Positions 9,897 to 23,107 of a stretch of 64,000 nt of DNA are shown here, one piece after another. The position numbers and the translations under genes are program-made. The notes below the pieces were generated by a model. That model was not told the origin of the DNA and searched no databases. It saw nothing but the letters and a program-made list of their open reading frames with translations. Each line of letters starts with the position of its first letter. Positions within the stretch are counted from its first letter, which is position 1. Source of the stretch: Burkholderiales bacterium RIFCSPHIGHO2_12_FULL_63_20 (GTDB lineage: Bacteria; Pseudomonadota; Gammaproteobacteria; Burkholderiales; Burkholderiaceae_C); NCBI GenBank assembly GCA_001770775.1, contig MESA01000023.1, positions 1 through 64,000 on the forward strand, in the 5' to 3' direction.

Positions 9897-11027
9897 ATGT
9901 CCAATAAAGTTGCACTGATCACCGGCGTCACAGGTCAGGATGGTTCCTACCTGGCAGAGTTTCTGTTGAAGAAGGGTTATGAGGTACACGGCATCAAGCG
10001 TCGCTCCTCACTTTTCAACACCGATCGCATCGATCATCTCTACCAGGATCCGCACGTCAACAACCGCAACTTCATCCTGCACTACGGTGATCTCACGGAC
10101 TCGACCAGTTTGGTGCGCATCGTCCAGAAGGTGCAGCCAGATGAAATCTATAACCTTGCCGCTCAGTCACACGTGGGCGTGAGCTTCGAGGAGCCGGAAT
10201 ACACAGCCAATGCCGATGGCATCGGTACGCTGCGCTTGTTGGAAGCCATTCGCATCCTAGGGCTGGAGAAGAAGACGCGCTTCTACCAGGCCTCTACCTC
10301 TGAGCTGTACGGTCTGGTGCAGGAGATTCCCCAGAAGGAAACCACGCCGTTCTACCCTCGCAGCCCCTACGCTGTGGCCAAGATGTATGCCTATTGGATC
10401 ACGGTGAACTACCGCGAGGCCTATGGCATGTACGCCTGTAACGGCGTGCTGTTCAATCATGAGAGTCCGGTGCGTGGTGAGACCTTCGTGACTCGCAAGA
10501 TCACGCGTGCCATCAGCCGCATTGCGCTGGGCCTGCAGGACTGTTTGTACCTTGGCAACATGAGTGCTCTGCGCGACTGGGGCCATGCCAAGGACTATGT
10601 GGAGATGCAATGGCTGATGCTGCAGCAGGAAGTGGCCGACGACTTTGTGATCGCCACCGGCGTGCAGTACAGCGTGCGTCAGTTTGTAGAGTTCGCTGCC
10701 AAGGAGTTGGGAATCACGCTGGCTTTTGAAGGCGAGGGCGAGGCCGAAGTGGGCACCGTGGTGGCGATCGAGCCGGTCAATGGCCAATTGCTGGCGAAGT
10801 GCAAGGTGGGTGATGTAATCGTGAAGGTTGATCCCCGTTATTACCGCCCGACCGAAGTCGAGACCCTGCTGGGCGATCCGACCAAGGCGCGAGAGAAGCT
10901 GGGATGGACGCCCAAGATCAGTCTGGCAGAGTTGGTGGCAGAGATGGTGCTGAGCGACTACGCCTCCGCCAAGCGAGACAGTCTTGTGAAGCTGGCCGGG
11001 TTCCAGGCCTATGACTATCACGAGTGA
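9897..11027 (+). CDS. gmd: GDP-mannose 4,6-dehydratase
   Basis: Gmd dehydrates GDP-D-mannose to GDP-4-keto-6-deoxymannose, the precursor of GDP-L-fucose (made by the fcl product at 5812) and of GDP-D-rhamnose. The 376-residue SDR has [19 protein letters not shown] at residues 9-27, [30 protein letters not shown] and the catalytic [10 protein letters not shown], then [18 protein letters not shown] and C-terminal [18 protein letters not shown]. The length is close to the family norm. Its end overlaps the flippase gene by 17 nt. Confidence 0.97.
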
Positions 11028-12270
11028 GTGGCTGCGTTTCGGTCCTGCTCACTGGGCTCTGATCGATCAGGCTGTCGTTTCGGCGGCCACCTTCGCAGTG
11101 GGGGTCTTGCTGGCGAGGGCGCTGGACCCAGAGGGGTTGGCACTTTACTCGCTGGCCATCACGACGGTGTTATGCCTGACGTCGGTGCATCGCGCACTGG
11201 TGGCCCAGCCACTGAACATCTTGGGTGCGCAGGAGCTTCAGGGGCAACGTCTGAGACGTTACAGCAACATGCTGCGCCTACAAGGGGGTATGTTGCCTGT
11301 GATGGCTTTGCTAGCCATCGTGGTGGGGTGGATGTTTTTCCCGGTGCCGAGCTTGATGATGGGGGCGGCGGTGTATGCCGGGGTGTTAGCGTTGCAGGAT
11401 CTGATTCGCCGTTATCACTATACGGATGGGCAGATTCAGCGGGCTGTCCCAGGAGACGTGCTGGCCTTTGGCGGGCAGGGCGCCGCTCTGGCTCTGCTGG
11501 TAGTTTTCGCGTGGCCGGTATCGGTTTCGCTCGTGTTCTGGTGGTTGATGGTGCCGCTGGTGGTGTCGGCCCTCTGGATGCATCGCCTGATTCGCCGCTC
11601 CGGGCAACCGGCCAAGGCAGGGTCTGGCGTGATCGAACACCTGGCAGAGCATTGGGCTAATGCGCGGTGGGTGGTGTTGAGTCAGTTGGTGTGGATCGGG
11701 GCGAGTCAGCTGATACCGTTTCAACTGGCAACGTATGCAAAGTCGCAGGATGTGGCTGCCTACCATGCAGCCAATGCCTTGATGAATGCATTGAATGTGT
11801 TTCGACTGACCTTAGGTAATTACCTTCCAGGGCGTTCTGCGCGTGTGTTTGCTGATGGTGGCGCGCAGGCCTTACGGATGTATCTGCGCCAAGTGAGTTT
11901 GGCTTGTTTGGGTTTGGCTTTTGTGGTGTTTGTGTTTTTCGAGCTCACTGGGGATTTCTGGGTTGATTGGCTGTTTGCTGGAAAGTACCAAGAGGCCAAG
12001 CCGGTGGTGTCGGCCATGGTGCTGGTACACCTTTTGGCGATGTCGGCCTTGATCAGCGCGGCGGGTGCGCAGGTGATGGGCACTACAAGGGTGATGTTCT
12101 GGTCCAACGCAGTGGCTTTGGCGCTGACTTTGACCTTGGGCTCTTGGTTCATCCATGTGTGGGGCTTGTGGGGAGCCGTGGTCGCGCTGGCGATTGGCTT
12201 GTTGTTGCCCGCGATGGTGCAGGGCGTGCACCTGTCGATTCATTTTCGAAGCCGTTTGGGGCAAGTATGA
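11011..12270 (+). CDS. Polysaccharide flippase-like (Wzx/MATE fold) membrane protein
   Basis: The protein has 419 residues and about 12 hydrophobic segments arranged in pairs, consistent with a Wzx-type lipid-linked oligosaccharide flippase of the MVF/MOP superfamily. The sequence starts [26 protein letters not shown], a common opening of O-antigen/teichoic acid export proteins, and the second half shows [13 protein letters not shown] and [13 protein letters not shown], typical of the family. The gene starts inside the 3' end of gmd and its stop overlaps the next ATG (ATGA). It is poorly conserved, as flippases usually are, so specificity cannot be told. Confidence 0.8.
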
Positions 12271-13079
12271 AGATTTCTTTGGTGACCTGCTCCTATCAGC
12301 AGGGCAAATTTCTTGATGCGACGATGCGTTCGGTGCTGGATCAAAGGTACCCAGATCTGGAGTACATCGTGATTGACGGGGGCTCGAGGGACCAGTCTGT
12401 CGAGGTGATTCGGCGCCATGAGCACTCGCTGGCGTACTGGGTGTCGGAGAAGGACCGTGGCCAGACCCATGCTTTGCGCAAAGGGTTTGAGCGTGCGAGC
12501 GGTGACATTCTGGGTTGGTTGTGCTCGGATGATTTGTTGCTGCCGGGCGCGTTGAAGCGGGTGGCGGCTTACTTTGAGGCCCACCCGGAAGTCGATGTGA
12601 TCTTTGGTAACGCGCTGTGGATCGACGCTCAGGGTCAGTTCATACGCCCCAAGAAAGAGATGCCCTGGAACAAGTTTGTGTTTCTGTACGACCACAACTA
12701 CTTGGCTCAGCCCGCGACGTTCTGGCGTCGATCCCTTTATGAGAAGGTGGGGGGGTTGGATGAGTCCTGGAATCTGGGTATGGACTCAGACTTGTGGTTG
12801 CGGTTTGCGCACCATGCACGGCCTCGCTATGTCGATGAGTATTTTGCGTGCATGCGGGATTATCCTGAGCAGAAAACGCGCGCCTTGAAGCCCGCAGGTC
12901 GTGCGGAAGACGCGACGCTGAGTGCGCGCGAACTGCCGGCGCTTCAGCGACTCCCGCAGAGACCGTTGGGTTGGTTGGCGAGGGCTGGCCGCATTGGGAT
13001 CAAGCTGGTGCAGGGTGGTTATTGGGCCTCGCCGCCGGCAGAGTACGTGAAGGCGCTGGAGCGCTACCGGATCGTTTGA
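12267..13079 (+). CDS. Family 2 glycosyltransferase
   Basis: The 270-residue protein opens [20 protein letters not shown] and carries the GT-A fold signatures IVIDGGSRDQSVEVI near residues 32-46 and the DxD-like GWLCSDDLLLPGAL near 84-97, followed by LAQPATFWRRSLYEKVGG and MDSDLWLRFA. It probably transfers one sugar during assembly of the repeat unit at the cytoplasmic face of the membrane. The ATG overlaps the flippase stop by four bases. An upstream in-frame extension to 11967 is an open frame inside the flippase gene and is not used. The donor and linkage are unknown. Confidence 0.88.
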   Translation: MKISLVTCSYQQGKFLDATMRSVLDQRYPDLEYIVIDGGSRDQSVEVIRRHEHSLAYWVSEKDRGQTHALRKGFERASGDILGWLCSDDLLLPGALKRVAAYFEAHPEVDVIFGNALWIDAQGQFIRPKKEMPWNKFVFLYDHNYLAQPATFWRRSLYEKVGGLDESWNLGMDSDLWLRFAHHARPRYVDEYFACMRDYPEQKTRALKPAGRAEDATLSARELPALQRLPQRPLGWLARAGRIGIKLVQGGYWASPPAEYVKALERYRIV

Positions 13080-13093
13080 GACTGGGGCTGAGC

Positions 13094-14392
13094 ATGGGGG
13101 CGAGAGCAAAGTATTCATCGATCCATCGGCACCAGATGATGGTGACGAATGTGAAGCAATCCGCATCGCTCGAGATGACGGACTATTTCTTCCTGTTCAG
13201 CTTGTTCATCATGCTGTTCTGGGCGATCGATCCGCTCATGGTCGGGCTGGACATGATCGCTGGCGTCAAGCGCTTGCCGACTTTGTTGCTGTTCATGAAC
13301 CTGGCGTTCATCGTTGTGGGGCGTTTGATGTTCCGCAATCGCAGCACCTACGTGAGCTTTCGTGCCACGCTCAAGGAAATGCGCTACCTGGTGGCATTTT
13401 CTGCGATGGTCATCGTGGGGAGTTTGTATGCGCGTGAGGTGAAGGGAATCGAGGAGACTTTCTTGACCATGGGGGTCTTCACTTTGATGGCGCCCATCAC
13501 CTATTGGTACACGATCAATTCGATGGCGCCAATGAAGTTGCTGCGAGCCATCCTCATCGTCTATACGTTTTGGGCCGTGGTGGCATCAGGCATGCAACTG
13601 GGGTTTTTCCGTGTCATCGAGATCTTTCACAGCCGGGAGCATCTGGTGTTGCCAGCGCTGGGGACCTTTTTGTATTTCCTGCCATGGAAAGCAGGCCGTG
13701 TGCTGGGCATTGCCATGGTGGTGTTGGTGGCAATTGCAACCAATAAAAACACTGGCTACATCATCACGGTCTTCGTCTGCGGGTATCTGGTCTCGCTGAC
13801 GTTTTTCCGACGTTGGCGCAGCATGAAAGACCGCTTGCTGAGCACCACTTTGCTGCTGGCATTTGTCGCTGGGATCTTGATGGCGTTGGCTACCGTCTGG
13901 GTGGGGTACACCTATTTTGACGATGACATGCCCACGGGGAACCCGGAGTACCGTCTCTACACCTACGACATTGCTTGGCAGAGATTCTTGAGCTCTCCCA
14001 TCTGGGGCACGTTGTTCTCTGAGTCGGCGGTGGTGTACTTCAGCAAGTTTGATGTGGCGGCCAGTACCCAATACCTGCCGACGCACAGTGATCCGCTGGA
14101 CATCATGGCGCACGGTGGCGTGATCGCTCTGGCCCTGTGGCTGATGGCCATTGTGCCGGTGTTGTGGCGGGCTTTCACGATGGCGAGCCTGTATGGGGGG
14201 GAGCTTTCTTGGTCTGACGAATGGGTGCACCAGTCGTTCTTGCTGATGGCGTTCACAGCCCTGCTTGTGTGCATGTTCAACCCGATTTATAACGTGCCGA
14301 ACTTGGCGACTGCGAACTGGATGGTGCTGGGCTGCGTGCTGACGTCAACACAAGTTTGTACGCGCATGCTTCAGCAGGAGAGGCGGTCGTGA
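13094..14392 (+). CDS. Wzy-like polysaccharide polymerase / O-antigen ligase family membrane protein
   Basis: The 432-residue protein has about ten transmembrane helices with a larger polar loop around DDMPTGNPEYRLYTYDIAWQ and LPTHSDPLDIMAHGG, the pattern of Wzy and WaaL proteins, where the periplasmic loop near the C-terminal third carries the His and Arg residues used in catalysis. Position between a flippase and glycosyltransferases supports a role as repeat-unit polymerase. The start at 13094 lies 14 nt after the preceding stop; ATG 13136 is an alternative that would remove a polar 14-residue leader. Sequence identity to named families is too low to see by eye. Confidence 0.72.
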   Translation: MGARAKYSSIHRHQMMVTNVKQSASLEMTDYFFLFSLFIMLFWAIDPLMVGLDMIAGVKRLPTLLLFMNLAFIVVGRLMFRNRSTYVSFRATLKEMRYLVAFSAMVIVGSLYAREVKGIEETFLTMGVFTLMAPITYWYTINSMAPMKLLRAILIVYTFWAVVASGMQLGFFRVIEIFHSREHLVLPALGTFLYFLPWKAGRVLGIAMVVLVAIATNKNTGYIITVFVCGYLVSLTFFRRWRSMKDRLLSTTLLLAFVAGILMALATVWVGYTYFDDDMPTGNPEYRLYTYDIAWQRFLSSPIWGTLFSESAVVYFSKFDVAASTQYLPTHSDPLDIMAHGGVIALALWLMAIVPVLWRAFTMASLYGGELSWSDEWVHQSFLLMAFTALLVCMFNPIYNVPNLATANWMVLGCVLTSTQVCTRMLQQERRS

Positions 14393-16056
14393 TGCGGTGT
14401 TTGGCTGCTCTTGCGATCTGCTTTGGGCTGAACTGGGCTGGTGTCGGGCACGCGGCCACCTTGGTTGCCACGCCTGAGACGCTGGTGCAGCAGTTAAAGC
14501 AGTTTCGCAGCGGCGACACGCTGTTATTGAAGCCTGGTATCTACCGGGGCACGATTGATTTGCGTAATCGCATGGCTGAGCCAGACGCGCCTTCTGTGAT
14601 CCGGGGGGATGTTTCGAGCGGGGGGCGTGTGGTCTTGCGGGGCTCGGATGTGCTGGCGGACTGGCGCTTGGTTGCGCCTGGCATCTACGTGCATGACCTG
14701 GAGAAGGAGGCAAGCCAGGTTTTCGTGAATGGGCACTTGTTGCAACAGATTGGTGGCACCGTGTTTGACGGCTATCCCGATAATGCTCAAAGCGCTTACC
14801 GCGAGTTGCACCCCCACGATGGCGGCATCTGGCCTGGACGCAAGCCAGTGGTGGCATGGCAGGGTATGTCGGCGGAGAGTTTCTGGTACGACCGCAAAAA
14901 CAAGCGTCTGTACGCACGCACGGCCGAAGACCTGCGAGACCAGGCCGTGAGGGTGGAAGCATCGCAGCGAGAGCGTGTGCTATTTCTGGAGAACGTGCAG
15001 TTCATGCAAGTGCACGATCTCGACATCGAGCATGCCAACACATCGGTGACCAACCGAGGTGGTGCGCTGGTTGTGTGGCGAAGCCGGGATGTGAGCTTGC
15101 GAGGCATTCGGGCATTCTGGAACGACCTGACGGGCATTCAACTGGCGGGTGAGCGTATCTCGCTGATTGGTTCAGAGGCCATGCATAACGGCCAGGTCGG
15201 TGTCAGCGGGTTTGGCAGTCGCATCACGGTGCAGCAGGTCAAGTCCTCATACAACAATCGCCGTGGCTTCAATAAATGGTGGGAAGCAGGCGGATTCAAG
15301 TTCATCGGATTTGACGATGGCGCCCTGCGTGATTCGGTGGTGGTGGATTGTCAAGCGCTGTTCAACCGCGGAGATGGTATTTGGTTTGATTGGAAAAACA
15401 GGAATGTGCAGGTGGCGCGGAATGTGTCGGCCTACAACACAGGTTTTGGTATCCATTACGAGGCCAGCAGTGAGGGCGTGATCGAGGACAACCTGATTTT
15501 TGGCAATGGTCAGAGAGGGGTGTATCTGTCGAGCTCGCGGACTTCCTTGGTGCGTCATAACCTGATTCTGGGCAACGGCGGGGAGGGGGTGGTCTCAGTG
15601 ACCGAGCACGGACGCAAGGACAATCAGGGGCATCGCTTGGATTCGGATACCAATCGTGTGGAAGCCAACGTGATTGGCTGGAACGCGGGGGGCGCAGTCT
15701 ATCTGTCGTCGGATCCGGGCAATGTGTCCAACCGCAACGTGTTCCTCGGCGAGGGCGTTGCCAGCCGCTTCAGTGTGAATTACCCCTCGCCACTGAATCT
15801 GCCGGTGTATGGACTGGATGCTTGGTTCCAGCGCACAGGGCAAGATGCTCATTCGTGGTGGTTGAATGCTCCGATGCCAGAGTCCTGGGCAGCCTATTTC
15901 AAGGCACGCTCGACCGCGAAGGCACCGATGGTCGCCTTGGTGCTTGACGCACGTGTATGGCCGTCAGATCAGCGTGTTGTGCTCGGCAAGGACATGTCTC
16001 GCTGGGCTTCAGATGCCCCGTTGCCAGAAGTCGGGCCCCGTAATGTGGTGCCATGA
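14392..16056 (+). CDS. Secreted right-handed beta-helix repeat protein (possible polysaccharide-modifying enzyme)
   Basis: A clear signal peptide (residues 1-23, ending GVGHAA) is followed by a beta-helix domain with many short turns of the type NRGDGIWFDWKNRNVQVARN, SEGVIEDNLIFGNGQRGVYL and TSLVRHNLILGNGGEGVVSV, spanning about residues 190-460. Such folds are found in alginate epimerases, polysaccharide lyases and glycan hydrolases. Within an EPS locus it probably acts on the polymer in the periplasm or outside the cell, either for editing or for clearance; the reaction is not known. The ATG overlaps the Wzy-like stop (TGATG) behind an AGGAGAGG ribosome-binding site. The length is 554 residues. 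Confidence 0.82.
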   Translation: MRCLAALAICFGLNWAGVGHAATLVATPETLVQQLKQFRSGDTLLLKPGIYRGTIDLRNRMAEPDAPSVIRGDVSSGGRVVLRGSDVLADWRLVAPGIYVHDLEKEASQVFVNGHLLQQIGGTVFDGYPDNAQSAYRELHPHDGGIWPGRKPVVAWQGMSAESFWYDRKNKRLYARTAEDLRDQAVRVEASQRERVLFLENVQFMQVHDLDIEHANTSVTNRGGALVVWRSRDVSLRGIRAFWNDLTGIQLAGERISLIGSEAMHNGQVGVSGFGSRITVQQVKSSYNNRRGFNKWWEAGGFKFIGFDDGALRDSVVVDCQALFNRGDGIWFDWKNRNVQVARNVSAYNTGFGIHYEASSEGVIEDNLIFGNGQRGVYLSSSRTSLVRHNLILGNGGEGVVSVTEHGRKDNQGHRLDSDTNRVEANVIGWNAGGAVYLSSDPGNVSNRNVFLGEGVASRFSVNYPSPLNLPVYGLDAWFQRTGQDAHSWWLNAPMPESWAAYFKARSTAKAPMVALVLDARVWPSDQRVVLGKDMSRWASDAPLPEVGPRNVVP

Positions 16057-16074
16057 CGGAATCAGGGACTGGCC

Positions 16075-17169
16075 ATGCGCGTTTTGTTTGATGTGTTTGA
16101 ACTCACGCCCGATGGGGGCAAGAGCATGGGCATCTACCACTATGCCCGCAATGTCTGGCAGGAGTTTGTCGCCGCTTTGCCTGAAGACATGAGCCTGGTT
16201 TTGGCCTGTCATGGGCGAAATGCAAGTGACTTTCCGGCTGTGTCACATCCACGGGTTGAGCGGGTGCTGCTGCAAGACGATACTCCGCGACAGTGGCAGC
16301 GGCAGCGATGGCTGAGGTGGGGGGCCCAGGCGCTGGCTCGCCAAAAGGGTTGTGACGTGTACTTCACGCCCAAAGGCTTCTTGCCTGGGTTGTGGGGGGC
16401 GCCGATGGGGGTGCGAACTTGTGCCGTCGTGCACGACCTGATCCCACTTTGGTACGCCGAGCATCAACCTGGGTATTTTCCCCGGACGGAGTTGGTGGTG
16501 TTAGAGCATGAGCTGCGGCGAACCTGTCGGCACGCGGATCGCTTGGTGACGATTTCTGACGCATCGGCCGATGACATCTTGGCACGCGTGCCAGATGCAA
16601 GGCGACCTGCGGTGGTCTACAACGGTTTGCCTCCTGCACCACGGCAGGTGGTGCGACCCGCACGTGCACCATTCATTTTCGCGATGGCATCGAGCTTTCC
16701 GCACAAAAATGCGGAAGCTGTCATGGACGGGTACCAACGTTACCGTGCGCAAGTGGCAGATCCTTTGGACCTGGTTGTGTGTGGCATCGAGGATCCAGGA
16801 CAGCCCGGTGTGAGCTGCTTGAAAGGCGTGAGTGCCGATGTGCTGCACGGCCATTACCAGGCCGCCGAGCTGTTTGTGTTTATGTCTCTGGTGGAGGGCT
16901 TTGGTTTTCCACCGCTGGAGGCCATGCAGCATGGAACGCCTGTGCTGTGTTCGGACCTGCCTGTGTTGCGTGAAACTACGCGGGGCAATGCGTTTTTTGT
17001 GTCCCCTGTTGATGCCGATGCTGTGGGAGCGGCGATCCGCCATGCGCTGGCAGATGAGCAGGCTGAGCAACGGGCGCACTTGCGCCATCGGGCGCAGGAC
17101 GTTGTGGCCTTTTATTCTTGGCAGCAGTGTGCAGGCGGCTTGCTGGACCAGTTGGAGATGCTGGCTTGA
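16075..17169 (+). CDS. Family 4 (GT-B) glycosyltransferase
   Basis: The 364-residue protein begins MRVLFDVFELTPDGGKSMGI and has the GT1/GT4 C-terminal nucleotide-sugar site FVFMSLVEGFGFPPLEAMQ with the E-x7-E pattern, followed by TPVLCSDLPVLRE. The middle contains FTPKGFLPG and VTISDASADDILARVP, typical of mannosyltransferase-like GT4 members. It should transfer one sugar from a GDP- or UDP-activated donor to the growing lipid-linked unit. The gene lies 18 nt after the beta-helix gene in the same operon. GDP-mannose, GDP-fucose or another donor is possible. Confidence 0.88.
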   Translation: MRVLFDVFELTPDGGKSMGIYHYARNVWQEFVAALPEDMSLVLACHGRNASDFPAVSHPRVERVLLQDDTPRQWQRQRWLRWGAQALARQKGCDVYFTPKGFLPGLWGAPMGVRTCAVVHDLIPLWYAEHQPGYFPRTELVVLEHELRRTCRHADRLVTISDASADDILARVPDARRPAVVYNGLPPAPRQVVRPARAPFIFAMASSFPHKNAEAVMDGYQRYRAQVADPLDLVVCGIEDPGQPGVSCLKGVSADVLHGHYQAAELFVFMSLVEGFGFPPLEAMQHGTPVLCSDLPVLRETTRGNAFFVSPVDADAVGAAIRHALADEQAEQRAHLRHRAQDVVAFYSWQQCAGGLLDQLEMLA

Positions 17170-17218
17170 CTGTCATGCCTGCGGGTACGCAAACGTGGAC
17201 CCATGCAATGGATCAACG

Positions 17219-18451
17219 ATGAAAATCTTGTTGTCTGCTTTCGCTTTTTCGCCACTTTGGGGTTCCGAGCCCGGTGTTGGTTGGTGCTGGGCCATTGAGA
17301 TGGCCAAAGCGCACGAGGTGACGGTGTTGACACATCGCTATTTCGAAAATCACATGCGGGAGATGGAAACCGCCATGGGCAAGCTCCCGTTCGAGGTGAT
17401 TTACTTTGACGTCAAACCGATCTGGCACCGATCTTATGAACGCTACTTGAACTCGCAGTTATATGCGTTGCGCTGGCAGTGGTGTGCGCGCTCATTTGTG
17501 AAGCGAATATTAAAGACCAGGCGTTTTGACCTCATCCACCACCTCACGCTGGGTACCATCCGTTACCCAAGTTTTTTGCAAAAACTGGGTGTGCCCTTGG
17601 TCGCAGGCCCCTTGGGTGGTGGGGAGCGTGCGCCATGTGGTTTCTACAAGGGCGTACCTTGGCGGGAGCGTTTGCGCGAGTTGCTTCGAGATGGCCTTAT
17701 ATGGAGTACAGCCTGGGATCCCATGATCCATTGGACTTGGGGGCGCACGGAAGTGTTGCTCTGCCGCACCCGTGAGTCGTTGGCGGCGCTGCCCTGGCAT
17801 GTTCGCGAGCGGTGCCGTCTGATGCAGGAGATCGGTTGTCCAGCCGCGCTTGCTGATGAGGCGGTCATGCCGATGCCTGGTGCAGATGTGCCCCTTCGGC
17901 TGTTGCACGTGGGACGATTGCTGGCGTTGAAAGGCATGCACTTGGCTTTGCCTGCCCTGGCCGACGTCACGGGACGCGGCGTGGATTGGCGTTTGACGTT
18001 GGTGGGGGTCGGGCCGATGGTCGGCCCTCTGAAGGCTCAGGCCAGTTCATTGGGGATTGCCGACCGTATCGACTGGGTGGGCAGCTTGCCGCGCGATCGT
18101 GTGATGGCGCTGTATGGTCAGCACGACGCGTTTCTATTCCCAAGCCTGCATGATTCTGGTGGCACGGTCGTGCTGGAGTCGCTGTCGCAGGGGTGTCCTG
18201 TGTTGTGTGTAGACCTTGGGGGGCCTCCCCACTTCGTGGACGACACCTGCGGTGCAGTGGTGCCTGTGCGTTCCGGTAAACCCGAGCCGGTCGTGGCTGG
18301 TTTGGCGGAAGTATTGTGTGATTGGGCCCAAAGTAGAAGTGCCTTGTATGCCTTGCGCCAGGGTGCTTTGAGGCGTGCTCGAGAACTGAGCTGGCCCAAT
18401 CGGGTGCAGGGGGCATATGAGTTGATCGAGGCCGCGCTCAGAGCTCGTTAA
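17219..18451 (+). CDS. Family 4 (GT-B) glycosyltransferase with a 3' end lying in an epsG remnant
   Basis: The 410-residue protein starts MKILLSAFAFSPLWGSEPGVGW, an opening common in GT4 enzymes of EPS loci, and contains LLHVGRLLALKGMHLALPAL and the donor site FPSLHDSGGTVVLESLSQGCPVLCVD. The ATG at 17219 lies 49 nt after the preceding gene; an open frame upstream of it runs inside that gene. Its last codons (AALRAR then stop) lie on the antisense strand of a degenerate epsG tail and match those of the acyltransferase (AALRTR then stop), so both genes end within copies of the same epsG sequence. Confidence 0.88.
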   Translation: MKILLSAFAFSPLWGSEPGVGWCWAIEMAKAHEVTVLTHRYFENHMREMETAMGKLPFEVIYFDVKPIWHRSYERYLNSQLYALRWQWCARSFVKRILKTRRFDLIHHLTLGTIRYPSFLQKLGVPLVAGPLGGGERAPCGFYKGVPWRERLRELLRDGLIWSTAWDPMIHWTWGRTEVLLCRTRESLAALPWHVRERCRLMQEIGCPAALADEAVMPMPGADVPLRLLHVGRLLALKGMHLALPALADVTGRGVDWRLTLVGVGPMVGPLKAQASSLGIADRIDWVGSLPRDRVMALYGQHDAFLFPSLHDSGGTVVLESLSQGCPVLCVDLGGPPHFVDDTCGAVVPVRSGKPEPVVAGLAEVLCDWAQSRSALYALRQGALRRARELSWPNRVQGAYELIEAALRAR

Positions 18452-18529
18452 GTATGGCGCCGCATGATCTGTATGCGTCCCAGTTCAACGGTGTGCACGA
18501 TGTTTTGCAGCGCGGTGAGCTGGCTGTGA
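18438..18529 (-). pseudogene. Degenerate copy of the epsG 3' end
   Basis: Bases 18434-18529 align with 19693-19787, the end of epsG, with about 82 of 96 columns identical by eye and one inserted base. Read on the minus strand, the remnant encodes LTALQNIVHTVELGRIQI, against LTALQNIVHTVGLGRTQI in EpsG, then a one-base insertion, then GAILNEL and a stop, against GAILNEF and a stop. Homology ends near 18530; sequence between there and the acyltransferase ATG is unmatched. It is too short to be functional. Its presence shows that the acyltransferase gene is bracketed by two epsG tails. Confidence 0.82.
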
Positions 18530-18624
18530 CGCCTCAAGTCCAGACTGTGGTGGGAGCTTATGCCTGGGCTCGGGCGGCCTATGGTGTGATGTCTGTGTGT
18601 TCAAAGAATGGATGGGTGCATTGA

Positions 18625-19710
18625 ATGGGCTTGATACGAACCTTGCTGGCCTTGGCCGTGGTTTTGGGGCATGCCCAGGCGGCCTATGTGATGGTGGGAG
18701 GACGCAATGCCGTCCAGATGTTTTATGTCATTTCGGGTTTTTTGATTTCGTATGTGTTGGTCGAACGTCGCGCATATGCATCCCCATGGGTGTTCTACGC
18801 CAACCGCTATCTGCGCTTGTACCCGATTTACCTGGTGGTCGGGTTGTTGACTTTGCTTGGCTGCGCCATGTCATTGCGACCGGAATTCTTTGAGGTTTAT
18901 CAGCAGGCGCCTTGGCCTGCGGCATTGTGGTTGTTTGTGTCCAACTTGTTGATCGTAGGGCAGGACTGGTTGATGTTTGCCGGGGTAAAGGCCAATCAAC
19001 TGGTGTTTGCTGTCGATTTCAAGATATCGGACGTGCCTCTGTGGAAGGGCTTGCTGGCGCCGCAGGCGTGGACTTTGGGTGTGGAGCTGAGCTTCTATTT
19101 GGTCGCGCCATTCATCGTGCGTCGGCGGGCCTGGTTGTGGTGCCTGTTGGTGACGTCTATCGCTTTGCGCGCGGCGCTGATCCGTCAGGGGCTCGGCATG
19201 AATGATCCGTGGGACTATCGATTTTTCCCAACCGAGTTGGCTTTGTTCATGATGGGAGCATTGACGCACCAGGTTCTGCGGCCTTTGTATGCCCGTTACT
19301 TGGAGCGCGATGTGCTCGCCCACCTGTCGTGGGGGGCATTGGGCGTGATGTTGTTGGCCGTGGTGGTCTATCCATATGTGCCGATGGACCACTTGCTCAA
19401 GTCTGCGCTGCTGTTCGCGCTGCTCCTGCCCTGCATGCCCTTGCTGTTTGTTCTACAGTCGAGTAGCAAAATAGACCGAACCATTGGGGAGTTGAGTTAC
19501 CCCATCTACATCTGCCACTGGCTTGTGATCGAGGTGTGCACCAAATTGTTTGCTGGACGGCCCAAAGAAGGCGCTTTCCTGGCGTGCGTGATTGGCGGCA
19601 GTCTGCTGTGCGCGTATGTACTGAACCGTTGGGTGGGTGAGCCAGTCGAGCGCTGGCGCGACAAGTTAAGGGCGCAAGGCGCGCCTCAGGCGGCGCTCAG
19701 AACTCGTTGA
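18625..19710 (+). CDS. Acyltransferase family 3 (OafA/YrhL type) membrane protein
   Basis: The protein has 361 residues and about ten transmembrane helices. It shows the family opening LIRTLLALAVVLGHAQAAY with the conserved His15, then AVQMFYVISGFLISYVLV, FYANRYLRLYPIYLVVG and the mid-protein APQAWTLGVELSFYLVAPF, with a final LSYPIYICHWLVIE. Such proteins transfer acetyl or other acyl groups to sugars of O-antigens or exopolysaccharides. It is the last rightward gene of the locus and overlaps the end of epsG by 14 nt. The flanking epsG-tail repeat indicates that it was acquired later than its neighbours. Confidence 0.9.
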   Translation: MGLIRTLLALAVVLGHAQAAYVMVGGRNAVQMFYVISGFLISYVLVERRAYASPWVFYANRYLRLYPIYLVVGLLTLLGCAMSLRPEFFEVYQQAPWPAALWLFVSNLLIVGQDWLMFAGVKANQLVFAVDFKISDVPLWKGLLAPQAWTLGVELSFYLVAPFIVRRRAWLWCLLVTSIALRAALIRQGLGMNDPWDYRFFPTELALFMMGALTHQVLRPLYARYLERDVLAHLSWGALGVMLLAVVVYPYVPMDHLLKSALLFALLLPCMPLLFVLQSSSKIDRTIGELSYPIYICHWLVIEVCTKLFAGRPKEGAFLACVIGGSLLCAYVLNRWVGEPVERWRDKLRAQGAPQAALRTR

Positions 19711-20626
19711 GAATGGCGCCCACGATCTGTGTGCGGCCCAATCCAACGGTGTGGACGATGTTTTGCAGTGCGGTGAGGCGACTGTGATCTCGTCGGGCCA
19801 TCAAGACAGCGGCACCACATTTGGCGGCAATGACGGCACCATCAGCGCCCTTGGAAGCAGAAGGTGTGTCAACGATGATGCGATCAAACTTGGTCAAAAG
19901 TTCTCTGACCAGCATGCCGAAAGCAGGACGTTCAACCAACTCAATGGGATTGGGTGGGATCACGCCGACTGGCAGGACGTACAGGCTGGGGAGGTGCTGA
20001 ACGTGATGGATCACTTGCGAGCTGGCGCGACCGGACAGAATGGATGATAGCCCGACCGCATGTTGGGGCAAGCCGAAGATCTCGTGCTGACGTGGGTTGC
20101 GCATATCGGCATCGATCAGCAGTGTGCGCCCCGACAGCTGTGAAAAGGCCACAGCGATATTGGCTGCGAAATAGCTTTTGCCGTCGCCGCTGTCGGAGCT
20201 GAGAACAGCCAGTGCCTGTCGGGGCTGGTCGGTTTGGCTGTAGAGCTTCATGATCAGGTGGCTACGCATGGTGCGGAATGCCTCGGCCTGATCTGTGAAG
20301 GGTTTGTTGGCCACGACCAGGTCTGGATGAAAGCCCTGGGTGGAATCTTGCGGATACGGGTAGTGAAACTGTTGAGCCAACGCCCACAGAACGTCGTCGC
20401 TGCTCGCCATGCCCAAGGCCACGGCTGCCTCGCCGAACCGCACACCATTGTCACGCTGGTATTTAAGGATGGACTCAATCTGGTCGGGTGCTAGGTTGTT
20501 GGCCTGCTTGATGATTTCGCCAATGGACCGCTCGTTGCCCCCTACATCGCGGGCAATTTCGGTTTCAGCAAAGGCGCTGTCCAGCAACTGCGCGTTGGCC
20601 TGTTTGGATGGGCGGAAGTAATTCAT
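19697..20626 (-). CDS. epsG: EpsG family chain-length determinant ATPase (BY-kinase-like)
   Basis: EpsG is the cytoplasmic ATPase partner of the Wzz-like EpsF in polymer-length control. The 309-residue protein has an N-terminal segment (about 35-90) resembling the N-domain of type II secretion ATPases, then Walker A SSDSGDGKS at 143-151, Walker A' LLIDADMR at 169-176 and the Walker B-like IIVDTPSASKGADG. It ends directly after VGAILNEF, so no tyrosine-rich C-terminal cluster is present; kinase autophosphorylation on such a tail cannot be assumed. It lies 15 nt downstream of epsF. Its 3' end overlaps the convergent acyltransferase gene. Confidence 0.92.
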   Translation of the reverse strand: MNYFRPSKQANAQLLDSAFAETEIARDVGGNERSIGEIIKQANNLAPDQIESILKYQRDNGVRFGEAAVALGMASSDDVLWALAQQFHYPYPQDSTQGFHPDLVVANKPFTDQAEAFRTMRSHLIMKLYSQTDQPRQALAVLSSDSGDGKSYFAANIAVAFSQLSGRTLLIDADMRNPRQHEIFGLPQHAVGLSSILSGRASSQVIHHVQHLPSLYVLPVGVIPPNPIELVERPAFGMLVRELLTKFDRIIVDTPSASKGADGAVIAAKCGAAVLMARRDHSRLTALQNIVHTVGLGRTQIVGAILNEF

Positions 20627-20641
20627 GTTGCGCAGTGTGGG

Positions 20642-22054
20642 TCAGTTAAGTGCAGCCGGCAGCATCTTGTTGTACGTGGTGCGCCTGTTGAAGAGTTTCA
20701 GGCGCTTGGGCATGGGGCTGGGCAGCACACCAATCACAGGGATCTCAAGCGCATGGATGAGGTCGGTGGCGGTGCGGATGCGGCGGTCCAGCAGTTCGGC
20801 TGCCAAGGTCGTGAATAGCGCTGCGACCGCACCGCCAAAAAGACCCAACGCGAGGAAAATGAACATGTTGGGCCATGAGTGCTTGGGCGGTTCGACTGCG
20901 GGGCTGAGCACGTAAGCGGAGGCCAAGTTGGCATTGCTCTCAAGGTTGGTCTGGCTCAAGCGCAATTGAATGGCCTCGAAGATGCGTTGCGCGGATTCAA
21001 CTTCGCGCTCCAGCAGTGCGACGCTGTCACGTCTCCCTTTCATTTCGAGGATTCGGGCTCGCTGTTCGTCGTAGCCTTTCTGAGCCGCCTCGACACGTGC
21101 ACGAACAATGGTGTCTGATGTGCGCAGACCACCAGAGATGCGACCCACTTCAGCATTGAGCTTGCGCTCCAGCTCGGCGATGCTGGCACGGGTTTGTTTG
21201 AGGGTCGGGTGTTCATCACCCATGTTCTGACTGAGCTGGTTGAGCTGTGCCGTTTGGCGCGCAATCTCAGTTCTGAGACCGCCAATGACCGGGTTGGTGA
21301 TCGCTTCGGCCGTGGTGTCGGCGCGATTGGCACCGGCAGCGCTGCGATTCGAGCTTTCCGCCATCAGGGCTTTAAGTGAAACAACCTGTGAGCCCAACTC
21401 GTTCAGGCGAGCCATTTCAAGATCCAAGCGCTCGTCGGTGGTGACGATGCCGCGCTCTCGCTGTGCTTCCGTCAGGCGTGTTTGAGCACGTTCGAGTTTT
21501 TCCCGCGCCATGCGTGCACGCTCTTCAAAATAATCTGAATAGCCACGCGCAGGATTGGTCCGCAACTCCACCACGGTGTCGGTGTAGGCCCGTGCGAAGG
21601 CGTTCGCAAGGACGGCGGCAAACTGCGGGCTGACTGATTCATACTGCAGCCGGATGATGCTGGACTCGCGAACAACAGAGACGCTCAGTCCTTTGAGTAG
21701 TGTCTTGCCTAGCCAGTCTTCAAAGCTGCCTCGCTGGTCAGTTTCCTTGATCCACTTGCTACGCATTTCCGCGTTGTCGCCCAACTTGAGCACGCCAACG
21801 ACGCGTCTTGCGACTGCATCGCTTCGGATCACATTGACCTGGGTGGCCATGTGAGCAGATGGCTGCAGCGTTGCAGCCTGGACCATGCCGGTAATCGGGT
21901 CAGGTTTGAGATCAACCACGATGCTGGTTTCAGCCGTGTAGCTTTTGGGAAGGAACAAGCCCAATAAGACCGCGACGCAGGCAATGCTGAGGAACAAACC
22001 GATGGCCAGCCATTTGCGGGCCATCAGGATGCGGAAGAACTGTTCAAACGTCAT
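20642..22054 (-). CDS. epsF: EpsF family chain-length determinant protein (Wzz/PCP type)
   Basis: This 470-residue inner-membrane protein has an N-terminal helix (about residues 15-35) and a C-terminal helix (about 410-435), with a long periplasmic coiled-coil region between, including KLERAQTRLTEAQRERGIVT and LERKLNAEVGRISGGL. This is the layout of polysaccharide co-polymerases that set EPS chain length. The cytoplasmic tail after the second helix is short, so the ATPase function is supplied by the separate epsG downstream. The order epsD-epsF-epsG on the minus strand fits the methanolan-type locus. Confidence 0.93.
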   Translation of the reverse strand: MTFEQFFRILMARKWLAIGLFLSIACVAVLLGLFLPKSYTAETSIVVDLKPDPITGMVQAATLQPSAHMATQVNVIRSDAVARRVVGVLKLGDNAEMRSKWIKETDQRGSFEDWLGKTLLKGLSVSVVRESSIIRLQYESVSPQFAAVLANAFARAYTDTVVELRTNPARGYSDYFEERARMAREKLERAQTRLTEAQRERGIVTTDERLDLEMARLNELGSQVVSLKALMAESSNRSAAGANRADTTAEAITNPVIGGLRTEIARQTAQLNQLSQNMGDEHPTLKQTRASIAELERKLNAEVGRISGGLRTSDTIVRARVEAAQKGYDEQRARILEMKGRRDSVALLEREVESAQRIFEAIQLRLSQTNLESNANLASAYVLSPAVEPPKHSWPNMFIFLALGLFGGAVAALFTTLAAELLDRRIRTATDLIHALEIPVIGVLPSPMPKRLKLFNRRTTYNKMLPAALN

Positions 22055-22105: not shown

Positions 22106-23107
22106 TTACTTCAGCCCGGAAATGCCCTTGCTGATGGCAGCAGGATCAAGGTTTTCTGCACTGGAGGCTGGTGTGGTTGCAGGGGGGGGGACGTCGCTGG
22201 CTGAACTCGTCGCAGCCACTCCCGCCGTCGGCTTGTTCACAAACTTACCCAAATACTCGACCTTGGCTGCCTCACGCAAACCCTTCATCTCTTTGAGCGC
22301 AAACTCACGGCGACGCTCAGCCGTTAAATACTGCTCGATCGCGGGTTTGGCTTGTTCGAACGCAACCGGCTGGCTGCGCGAGGCGACCACCAGCAAGGCC
22401 TTGAAGCCATCGTTGCCGGTGATGTAGAGGGCCTCACCGTCGCTGACCTTGCTCAGAGGGTCGATGATGCCGAGAGGCAGACCTTCAGCGGCCTGGGTGA
22501 TCTGATTGGCATTGAACTTGACACCGCTGGCTTTGATCACTTCCACGAACTGGGCGGGGCCACGGGTGGCCTTGAGTTGTTCGATCAAGGCCTTGCCTTG
22601 CTCGCCGCCCACCGGGACGGTGAATTCCTGCAGGGCGTAGACCTTGCGTTGTGAGAACAAGGCGGGTTTCTCGTCGTAGTACTTACGGATGTCATCGGCG
22701 GTGGGGGCGCCTGCGCCGGCGGTGGCGGCCTTATCCAGGTAGGTGCGAGCCAGGATGCTGCGGCGGGTGGCCTCCAGCAACTGCACCACCTGTGGGTCGC
22801 GGTCGAGCTTTTGCTCTTCCGCCTTGGCCACGGCCAGTTGCTGGTCGATCAGGCTTTCGAGGATTTGATGGCTGGCTGCTTCGGCCTGTTCGGGCTTGAG
22901 GCCCTGCTGACGTTCCAGCAGCTGGTTGATCTGGTGAACGGTGATCTCACTGCCATCCACCCTAGCGGCCGCCTGGGTGGCCTTGCCTTCGGCGGACTTT
23001 CCCTTGTCTCCACAACCTGCAGCCAGGGCGGCGGCAACAACGACGGGCAGCAGCGCCATCGAACGGAGGGTGCGTTGGCGGGCGGTGGCTTGCAGGCGGG
23101 TGGTCAT
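22106..23107 (-). CDS. epsD: EpsD family peptidyl-prolyl cis-trans isomerase (lipoprotein)
   Basis: The 333-residue protein has a lipoprotein signal with lipobox LAAGC (Cys32), a SurA-like N-terminal helical region (INQLLERQQGLKPEQAEAAS) and a parvulin-type PpiC domain around residues 150-260 with FVEVIKASGVKFNANQIT and LPLGIIDPLSKVSDGEALY. EpsD proteins accompany exosortase-linked EPS loci and probably act as periplasmic folding factors, although a direct EPS role is not proven. The C-terminal 40 residues are low-complexity Pro/Ala/Ser. It is the first gene of the minus-strand epsDFG operon, 51 nt before epsF. Confidence 0.92.
   Translation of the reverse strand: MTTRLQATARQRTLRSMALLPVVVAAALAAGCGDKGKSAEGKATQAAARVDGSEITVHQINQLLERQQGLKPEQAEAASHQILESLIDQQLAVAKAEEQKLDRDPQVVQLLEATRRSILARTYLDKAATAGAGAPTADDIRKYYDEKPALFSQRKVYALQEFTVPVGGEQGKALIEQLKATRGPAQFVEVIKASGVKFNANQITQAAEGLPLGIIDPLSKVSDGEALYITGNDGFKALLVVASRSQPVAFEQAKPAIEQYLTAERRREFALKEMKGLREAAKVEYLGKFVNKPTAGVAATSSASDVPPPATTPASSAENLDPAAISKGISGLK

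Follow-up and report, generated by a model that had tools for sequence, protein, structure and literature searches.

How did a gene for a membrane acyltransferase come to lie between two copies of the 3′ end of epsG? The question is raised by an exopolysaccharide (EPS) locus of Burkholderiales bacterium RIFCSPHIGHO2_12_FULL_63_20, on the first 64,000 nucleotides of contig MESA01000023.1, a stretch from a 48-contig draft assembly that is called the window below. On its plus strand a family-4 glycosyltransferase gene (GT4b) is followed by the acyltransferase gene (AT), which runs convergently into epsG. An earlier note on this DNA had proposed that the ancestral locus ran GT4b-epsG and that AT came in with an epsG tail by homologous recombination. 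We favor instead, with a probability of roughly 0.6, homology-facilitated illegitimate recombination, or an equivalent process, between two EPS alleles that shared epsG. The features on which this reading turns are:

17219..18451, plus strand: GT4b, family-4 glycosyltransferase (PF00534, 1.6e-25), ending in EAALRAR, with its last codons and stop within the orphan epsG tail

18429..18529, minus strand: orphan epsG 3′ tail, decayed, about the last 30 codons and 9 bases of flank, with a one-base length difference (alignment, polarised differences, tail tree)

18625..19710, plus strand: AT, membrane acyltransferase (Acyl_transf_3; PF01757, 1.1e-23), ending 14 bases into epsG

19688..19787, minus strand: right copy of the repeat, intact, the epsG 3′ end and 9 bases of flank (repeat finder, local alignment)

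19697..20626, minus strand: epsG-like gene for a chain-length-determinant tyrosine kinase, intact (TIGR03029, 1.4e-82, 277 bits)

The repeat and its occurrence at other epsG loci

Local alignment of positions 18429-18529 with 19688-19787 gave 86 identical columns out of 101 with one single-base gap and a score of 125, far above the best score of 29 obtained from 500 shuffled pairs. The same match was recovered by a repeat finder, in two pieces. The repeat is therefore confirmed, and it is slightly longer than the roughly 82 of 96 columns (18434-18529 against 19693-19787) reported in the earlier note, since it takes in 9 bases past the epsG stop. Read on the minus strand, the right copy runs ...LTALQNIVHTVGLGRTQIVGAILNEF and ends at the stop codon. 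The left copy has its frame broken, as had been noted, by the single base that appears as the gap in the alignment; it carries several replacements, and the rest of epsG is absent. A search of the same genome with positions 18400-18640 returned only the query itself and 19688-19787, so that no third copy was found there.

For comparison, a single scan yielded 80 epsG loci (loci rather than genomes, some genomes holding more than one), from which L094 was dropped because its epsG has no stop; 79 other loci were used. When the tail of each locus was compared by tblastn with up to 6 kb downstream of its own epsG, none of the 79 showed a second tail in the same orientation. Weak matches in the opposite orientation at L070, L076 and L114 (E 0.001-0.003) were taken as chance. 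The 77 loci that have 300 or more bases downstream were also scanned at the DNA level, with scores of at most 39, versus 112 in the window.

Decay of the left copy

A tree was built from 29 tails, each 91 bases long, two of them from the window and the others from 27 loci. In it the left and right copies of the window group as sisters (98/92), and L045 is the next to join them (97/91). The branch leading to the left copy measures 0.14 and that of the right copy 0.016. Thirteen differences between the copies fall inside epsG. With L045 as outgroup, nine of them are derived in the left copy and one in the right, and three could not be polarised. The nine left-derived changes are spread over codon positions 1, 2 and 3 as 2, 3 and 4. 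The left copy has lost constraint, and both copies began nearly identical. Because the tails diverged mostly through decay on the left, their divergence tells more about the age of the scar than about the foreignness of a donor. The idea that the mismatch between the tails marks a divergent donor was not borne out and is rejected.

The spacer between the orphan tail and AT

Homology to epsG ends shortly after 18529, and the DNA between this point and AT was compared with glycosyltransferase profiles. The features concerned are:

18530..18545: approximate position of the presumed illegitimate joint, where epsG homology ends (alignments)

18532..18624, plus strand: probable 3′ end of another family-4 glycosyltransferase (GT4) gene, its stop immediately ahead of the AT start codon (match to the C-terminus of the GT4a profile)

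18454..18624, plus strand: 56-codon open frame over the scar and the GT4 remnant, beginning 2 bases past the GT4b stop and ending at the AT start

16075..17169, plus strand: GT4a, family-4 glycosyltransferase (PF00534/PF13439), a relative of which adjoins epsG in L045 (REEB19)

After the joint the spacer reads PQVQTVVGAYAWARAAYGVMSVCSKNGWVH, with a stop immediately before the AT start codon. It matches a GT4a-family profile with 5.2 bits at profile positions 344-364 of 372, that is, at the C-terminal end, and only 1 of 5000 shuffles did as well. Among 1081 stop-anchored 30-mers from the six frames of the window, this score was reached only by the spacer and by the end of GT4a, itself a member of the profile. 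Two other sources were tried and rejected. The GT4b profile gave −1.8 bits, with 1617 of 5000 shuffles as good. A third GT4 family, that of the gene adjoining epsG in L058 (13 rows after removal of the fused row L185), gave a weaker 3.3 bits with 17 of 5000 shuffles as good, two of these C-terminal.

On this moderate evidence, the spacer is probably the 3′ end of a second GT4 gene, distinct from those of the window, which stood before AT in the other allele. As it looks like a GT4 gene end abutting AT, the left joint would be illegitimate. The plain homologous recombination of the earlier note falls short here, as it gives no reason for the tail to be cut short and for unrelated DNA to begin near 18530-18545. 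The 56-codon frame across the scar may couple the translation of AT to that of GT4b.

Identity and distribution of the acyltransferase

AT matches PF01757 over residues 3-334 with 84.2 bits (gathering score 31). From its position, we regard it as a putative enzyme for acylation of the EPS of this strain. Relatives were sought in 61 genomes, 36 of them from the same genus, and in samples of 399 genomes from the family and 369 from the class. At an E value of 0.001, 12 of the 61 genomes gave a match, the own genome included. The best match within the genus was only 28% identical over residues 2-346 (G008), the others scoring lower, most of them over short stretches, at identities of no more than 39%. 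The family sample gave 9 matches at E 1e-20, again including the own genome, with a best identity of 48% in another genus, and the class sample 2 at E 1e-35, one of them the own genome and the other 40% identical. Judged by these searches, relatives as a rule lack this AT, which the earlier note had predicted.

Ten AT neighbourhoods were looked at, in a sample with one genome per species; of the weaker matches in the 61-genome search, G008 was included. In none of the ten does epsG adjoin AT, and in one (L134) a relative of epsG lies about 6.7 kb away. At L136, from another genus, the AT relative lies within an EPS cassette together with relatives of the flippase, GT2, GT4b, wzy and beta-helix genes of the window, and AT therefore appears to be a normal member of the EPS gene pool. 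The gene order of that cassette differs from that of the window, and its AT stands inside the series, not at the end.

Carriage of AT by plasmids or phages was considered and rejected: the two sets gave one distant match each (26% and 24%, respectively), no relative was confirmed in viral contigs, and a search of plasmid DNA with positions 18400-19800 returned no match. Ten genes between 11011 and 23107 were scanned, and neither a transposase nor an integrase is among them. The earlier note's insertion without a mobile element thus agrees with the genes scanned and with the plasmid, phage and viral sets; inverted repeats were not searched.

EPS alleles in relatives and exchange of the locus

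Among the 80 loci, relatives of the beta-helix gene occur only at L045 (REEB19) and L046 (A. lacunae). Those of wzy occur at the same two loci; L084 and L087 have weaker ones on the opposite strand. The gene adjoining epsG is the beta-helix gene in L046 (57 bases off) and the GT4a relative in L045 (6 bases off, 47% identical to GT4a). Gene content beside epsG thus changes by steps, and the window additionally has GT4b, the orphan tail and AT. The orphan tail supports the ancestral GT4b-epsG order of the earlier note, which we would retain on that ground; that exact adjacency was not met with in the eight other genomes that carry GT4b relatives.

Trees of glnE, which lies just beyond epsD, and of epsG were built with 22 rows each (of 28, the others having too little glnE). 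In the former the window pairs with L058 (94% identity, 100/100), in the latter with L045 (94/88) and then L046 (99/97). DNA similarity to L058 is 86% over glnE and most of epsD and ends at 22230, past which only shorter and weaker stretches remain. Position 22230 in epsD is probably a breakpoint of EPS-locus replacement. From the discordance of the two trees together with the stop of similarity in epsD, the EPS locus therefore seems to pass from species to species as one block, in the manner of capsule switching. Mosaic breaks inside epsG were also sought and discarded as a reading, since sliding identity switched among L045, L046 and others with no clear donor. The similarity to L058 that stops in epsD concerns the region from 22230 (epsD) to 26584, and the epsF of L058 is only 48% identical as protein to that of the window:

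20642..22054, minus strand: epsF, chain length determinant (TIGR03017, 5e-134, above cut-off)

How the arrangement may have arisen

In the reading that we favor, one allele would have carried ...GT4a-GT4b convergent into epsG, and the other a different GT4 gene followed by AT, convergent into a nearly identical epsG. A fragment of one allele would have paired with the other through epsG as the homologous anchor; epsG and its tail flank AT today, and the two tails are sisters. The far end would have joined illegitimately, about 30 codons into epsG on one side and in the 3′ end of the GT4 gene on the other. This would leave GT4b carrying the orphaned end of its former epsG, followed by the remnant of the second GT4 gene, AT and a single intact epsG. 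The orphan tail would afterwards have decayed without constraint, and GT4b and AT would both owe their stop codons to the antisense of the last epsG codons. The observations behind this account are the repeat and its one-sided decay, the lack of another same-orientation tail at the 79 loci, relatives that have no such AT, the stepwise gene content at L046 and L045, the discordant glnE and epsG trees, the match of the spacer to the GT4a C-terminus at a fitting distance from its stop, and the AT relative in the L136 cassette.

The direction of the transfer is a separate matter, because the junction alone cannot say which side was resident. The information in it is symmetrical, and the decayed orphan tail and the intact epsG on the AT side are equally expected if the resident locus was GT4(other)-AT-epsG and the ...GT4a-GT4b series arrived from the left with a short epsG tail, leaving the end of the resident GT4 gene. 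The apparent mobility of the EPS locus between species, seen in the glnE/epsG discordance and the loss of L058 similarity at 22230, suits this opposite direction as well. The nearest relatives of the left cassette and of epsF and epsG are the same, L045 and L046, and for this reason AT as the newcomer is mildly favored and the opposite direction appears rather improbable. Of the earlier proposal that AT arrived with an epsG tail, the later joining of GT4b and AT stands, whereas an arrival from that side cannot be read from the junction.

The same structure would also be left by a merodiploid. Tandem alleles produced by a single crossover are ordinary intermediates, and a deletion from the first epsG into the GT4 gene of the second allele would account both for the truncation of the tail and for that of the GT4 end after it. 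Two events are required here, and homology-facilitated illegitimate recombination needs one step; moreover, tandem remains in the form of a second same-orientation tail occur at none of the 79 loci tested, and we consider this course unlikely. The very close common origin of the tails would further suit a duplication of the epsG tail on the spot, with AT entering between the copies in some unrelated way, for example by a mobile element. Such a route leaves unexplained why the spacer resembles a GT4 gene end whose stop abuts AT, and it sits poorly with the distant plasmid and phage matches, the lack of confirmed viral-contig relatives and the scanned genes free of transposase and integrase, which makes it very improbable. 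An assembly chimera of two strains, conceivable in a 48-contig draft, is hardly credible: copies differing in 15 of 101 columns would not merge as an exact repeat, and unconstrained decay of the left copy is not expected from two living strains.

Several observations weigh against homology-facilitated illegitimate recombination as we propose it. A merodiploid followed by deletion leaves an identical structure. The GT4 identity of the spacer depends on a match of 5 bits, the highest that any of the three profiles gave; a longer spacer peptide gave 5.3 bits, with 3 of 2000 shuffles higher; and the spacer peptide found no significant source in the 61 genomes, the best E value outside the window being 0.126. 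The exact base of the joint cannot be placed. At several of the 79 loci the sequence beyond epsG is short (less than 300 bases in two), and a second tail could escape notice there. Finally, neither parental arrangement, GT4b-epsG or GT4-AT-epsG, was found in the genomes searched: of the eight other genomes with GT4b relatives, six have epsG on the same contig at least 5 kb away and two on another contig.

Gene ends inside epsG

GT4b ends in EAALRAR and AT in QAALRTR, and both stops lie in the antisense of the last codons of epsG. These equivalent end positions, to which the earlier note had drawn attention, are indeed present. They are also partly expected, because the antisense of the last epsG codons, L-N-E-F/Y, carries a stop in that frame. 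At 10 of the 79 other loci the longest nearby convergent open reading frame (ORF; at least 100 amino acids) ends at the same offset. The shared stop position alone is therefore not strong evidence.

Four of these ten cases were inspected more closely. At L058 a GT4 gene (L058:6911-8071, PF00534) ends in ...EAVLSTR, 14 bases inside epsG, and at L049 a gene for a 677-amino-acid protein without Pfam match (L049:6860-8893) ends in ...EGVSTR, also 14 bases inside epsG. The two genes are unrelated to each other, and both end in -STR before the stop. By eye, the 677-amino-acid protein resembles the products of genes adjoining epsG in L069 and L070. The relatives seen of both genes have other C-termini, and those that adjoin epsG stop before it (L052, L069, L070). 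The 9 bases past the epsG stop in L058 differ by eye from the right copy of the window at one base. The ORFs of L101 and L104 that end at this offset look spurious on inspection.

The L058 and L049 genes, in ending 14 bases inside epsG, fit a broader and tentative idea, which we think possible though doubtful: in this genus the epsG 3′ end may be a recurrent landing edge for EPS genes, with successive joins, borrowed stops and orphan tails, and the frame across the scar may be of use to the cell. Orphan tails would then record the order of acquisition. The stop encoded by epsG's own codons, which makes a shared end position partly expected, counts against the weight of these cases.

Relation to known systems

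EPS and capsule loci diversify largely through gene exchange, and the joints are seldom preserved. Here the orphan tail would fix the earlier neighbour of epsG and so have a bearing on which of two gene gains came first. Should the pattern prove general, the edges of polysaccharide loci, with their orphan tails and captured stops, could reveal the order in which decorating genes arrived.

Homology-facilitated illegitimate recombination has been described in naturally competent bacteria and in E. coli (PMC3240628). As in that process, a homologous end would here anchor foreign DNA, with a non-homologous other end and no mobile element; the present case differs in being a footprint read from sequence alone and in having the 3′ part of a convergent gene as anchor. 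A mechanism of a similar kind has been proposed for the serial displacement of type VI secretion system effector modules, and is cited in that work for orphaned 3′ ends of Rhs genes (PMC5361080). Additions at a conserved gene are successive there and older parts are left behind, as here; the anchoring sequence is found upstream of the module and immunity genes are what is orphaned, whereas the window is anchored at a convergent gene, by its 3′ end, and has a short decayed scar for its orphan. In pneumococcus, serotype switching and mosaic cps loci involve replacement of whole or partial polysaccharide loci by recombination with another allele (PMC3541774), which is the likeness to our case. 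The relevant passages of that source describe mosaics and deletions flanked by insertion sequences, and no orphaned tail of a flanking gene. Within the open-access literature, titles and the opening lines of abstracts yielded no paper that deals with this locus or with orphan tails of epsG. The mechanism is known and the example new.

The surrounding EPS genes

The match of epsG to TIGR03029 covers the full length of the model with 277 bits, which lies under the curated cut-off of 313.8; the gene is therefore named epsG-like. It is followed by epsF (TIGR03017) and epsD (TIGR02925), in that order. The plus-strand cassette comprises a gmd-like gene, a flippase-like gene, GT2, wzy, the beta-helix gene, GT4a, GT4b and AT, all convergent into epsG. 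The gmd-like gene is tentatively so named from its sequence, and the flippase-like gene, which has no Pfam or NCBIfam match, presumably is one from its position.

The gmd-like gene (9897-11027) is conserved far above the rest of the cassette, its protein being 95-97% identical to stretches at the EPS loci L091 and L108 of the genus, and 66 to 96% at other loci. The G+C content of the EPS genes from 9897 to 22054 is 55-60%, versus 68% in glnE and 63% in the whole window.

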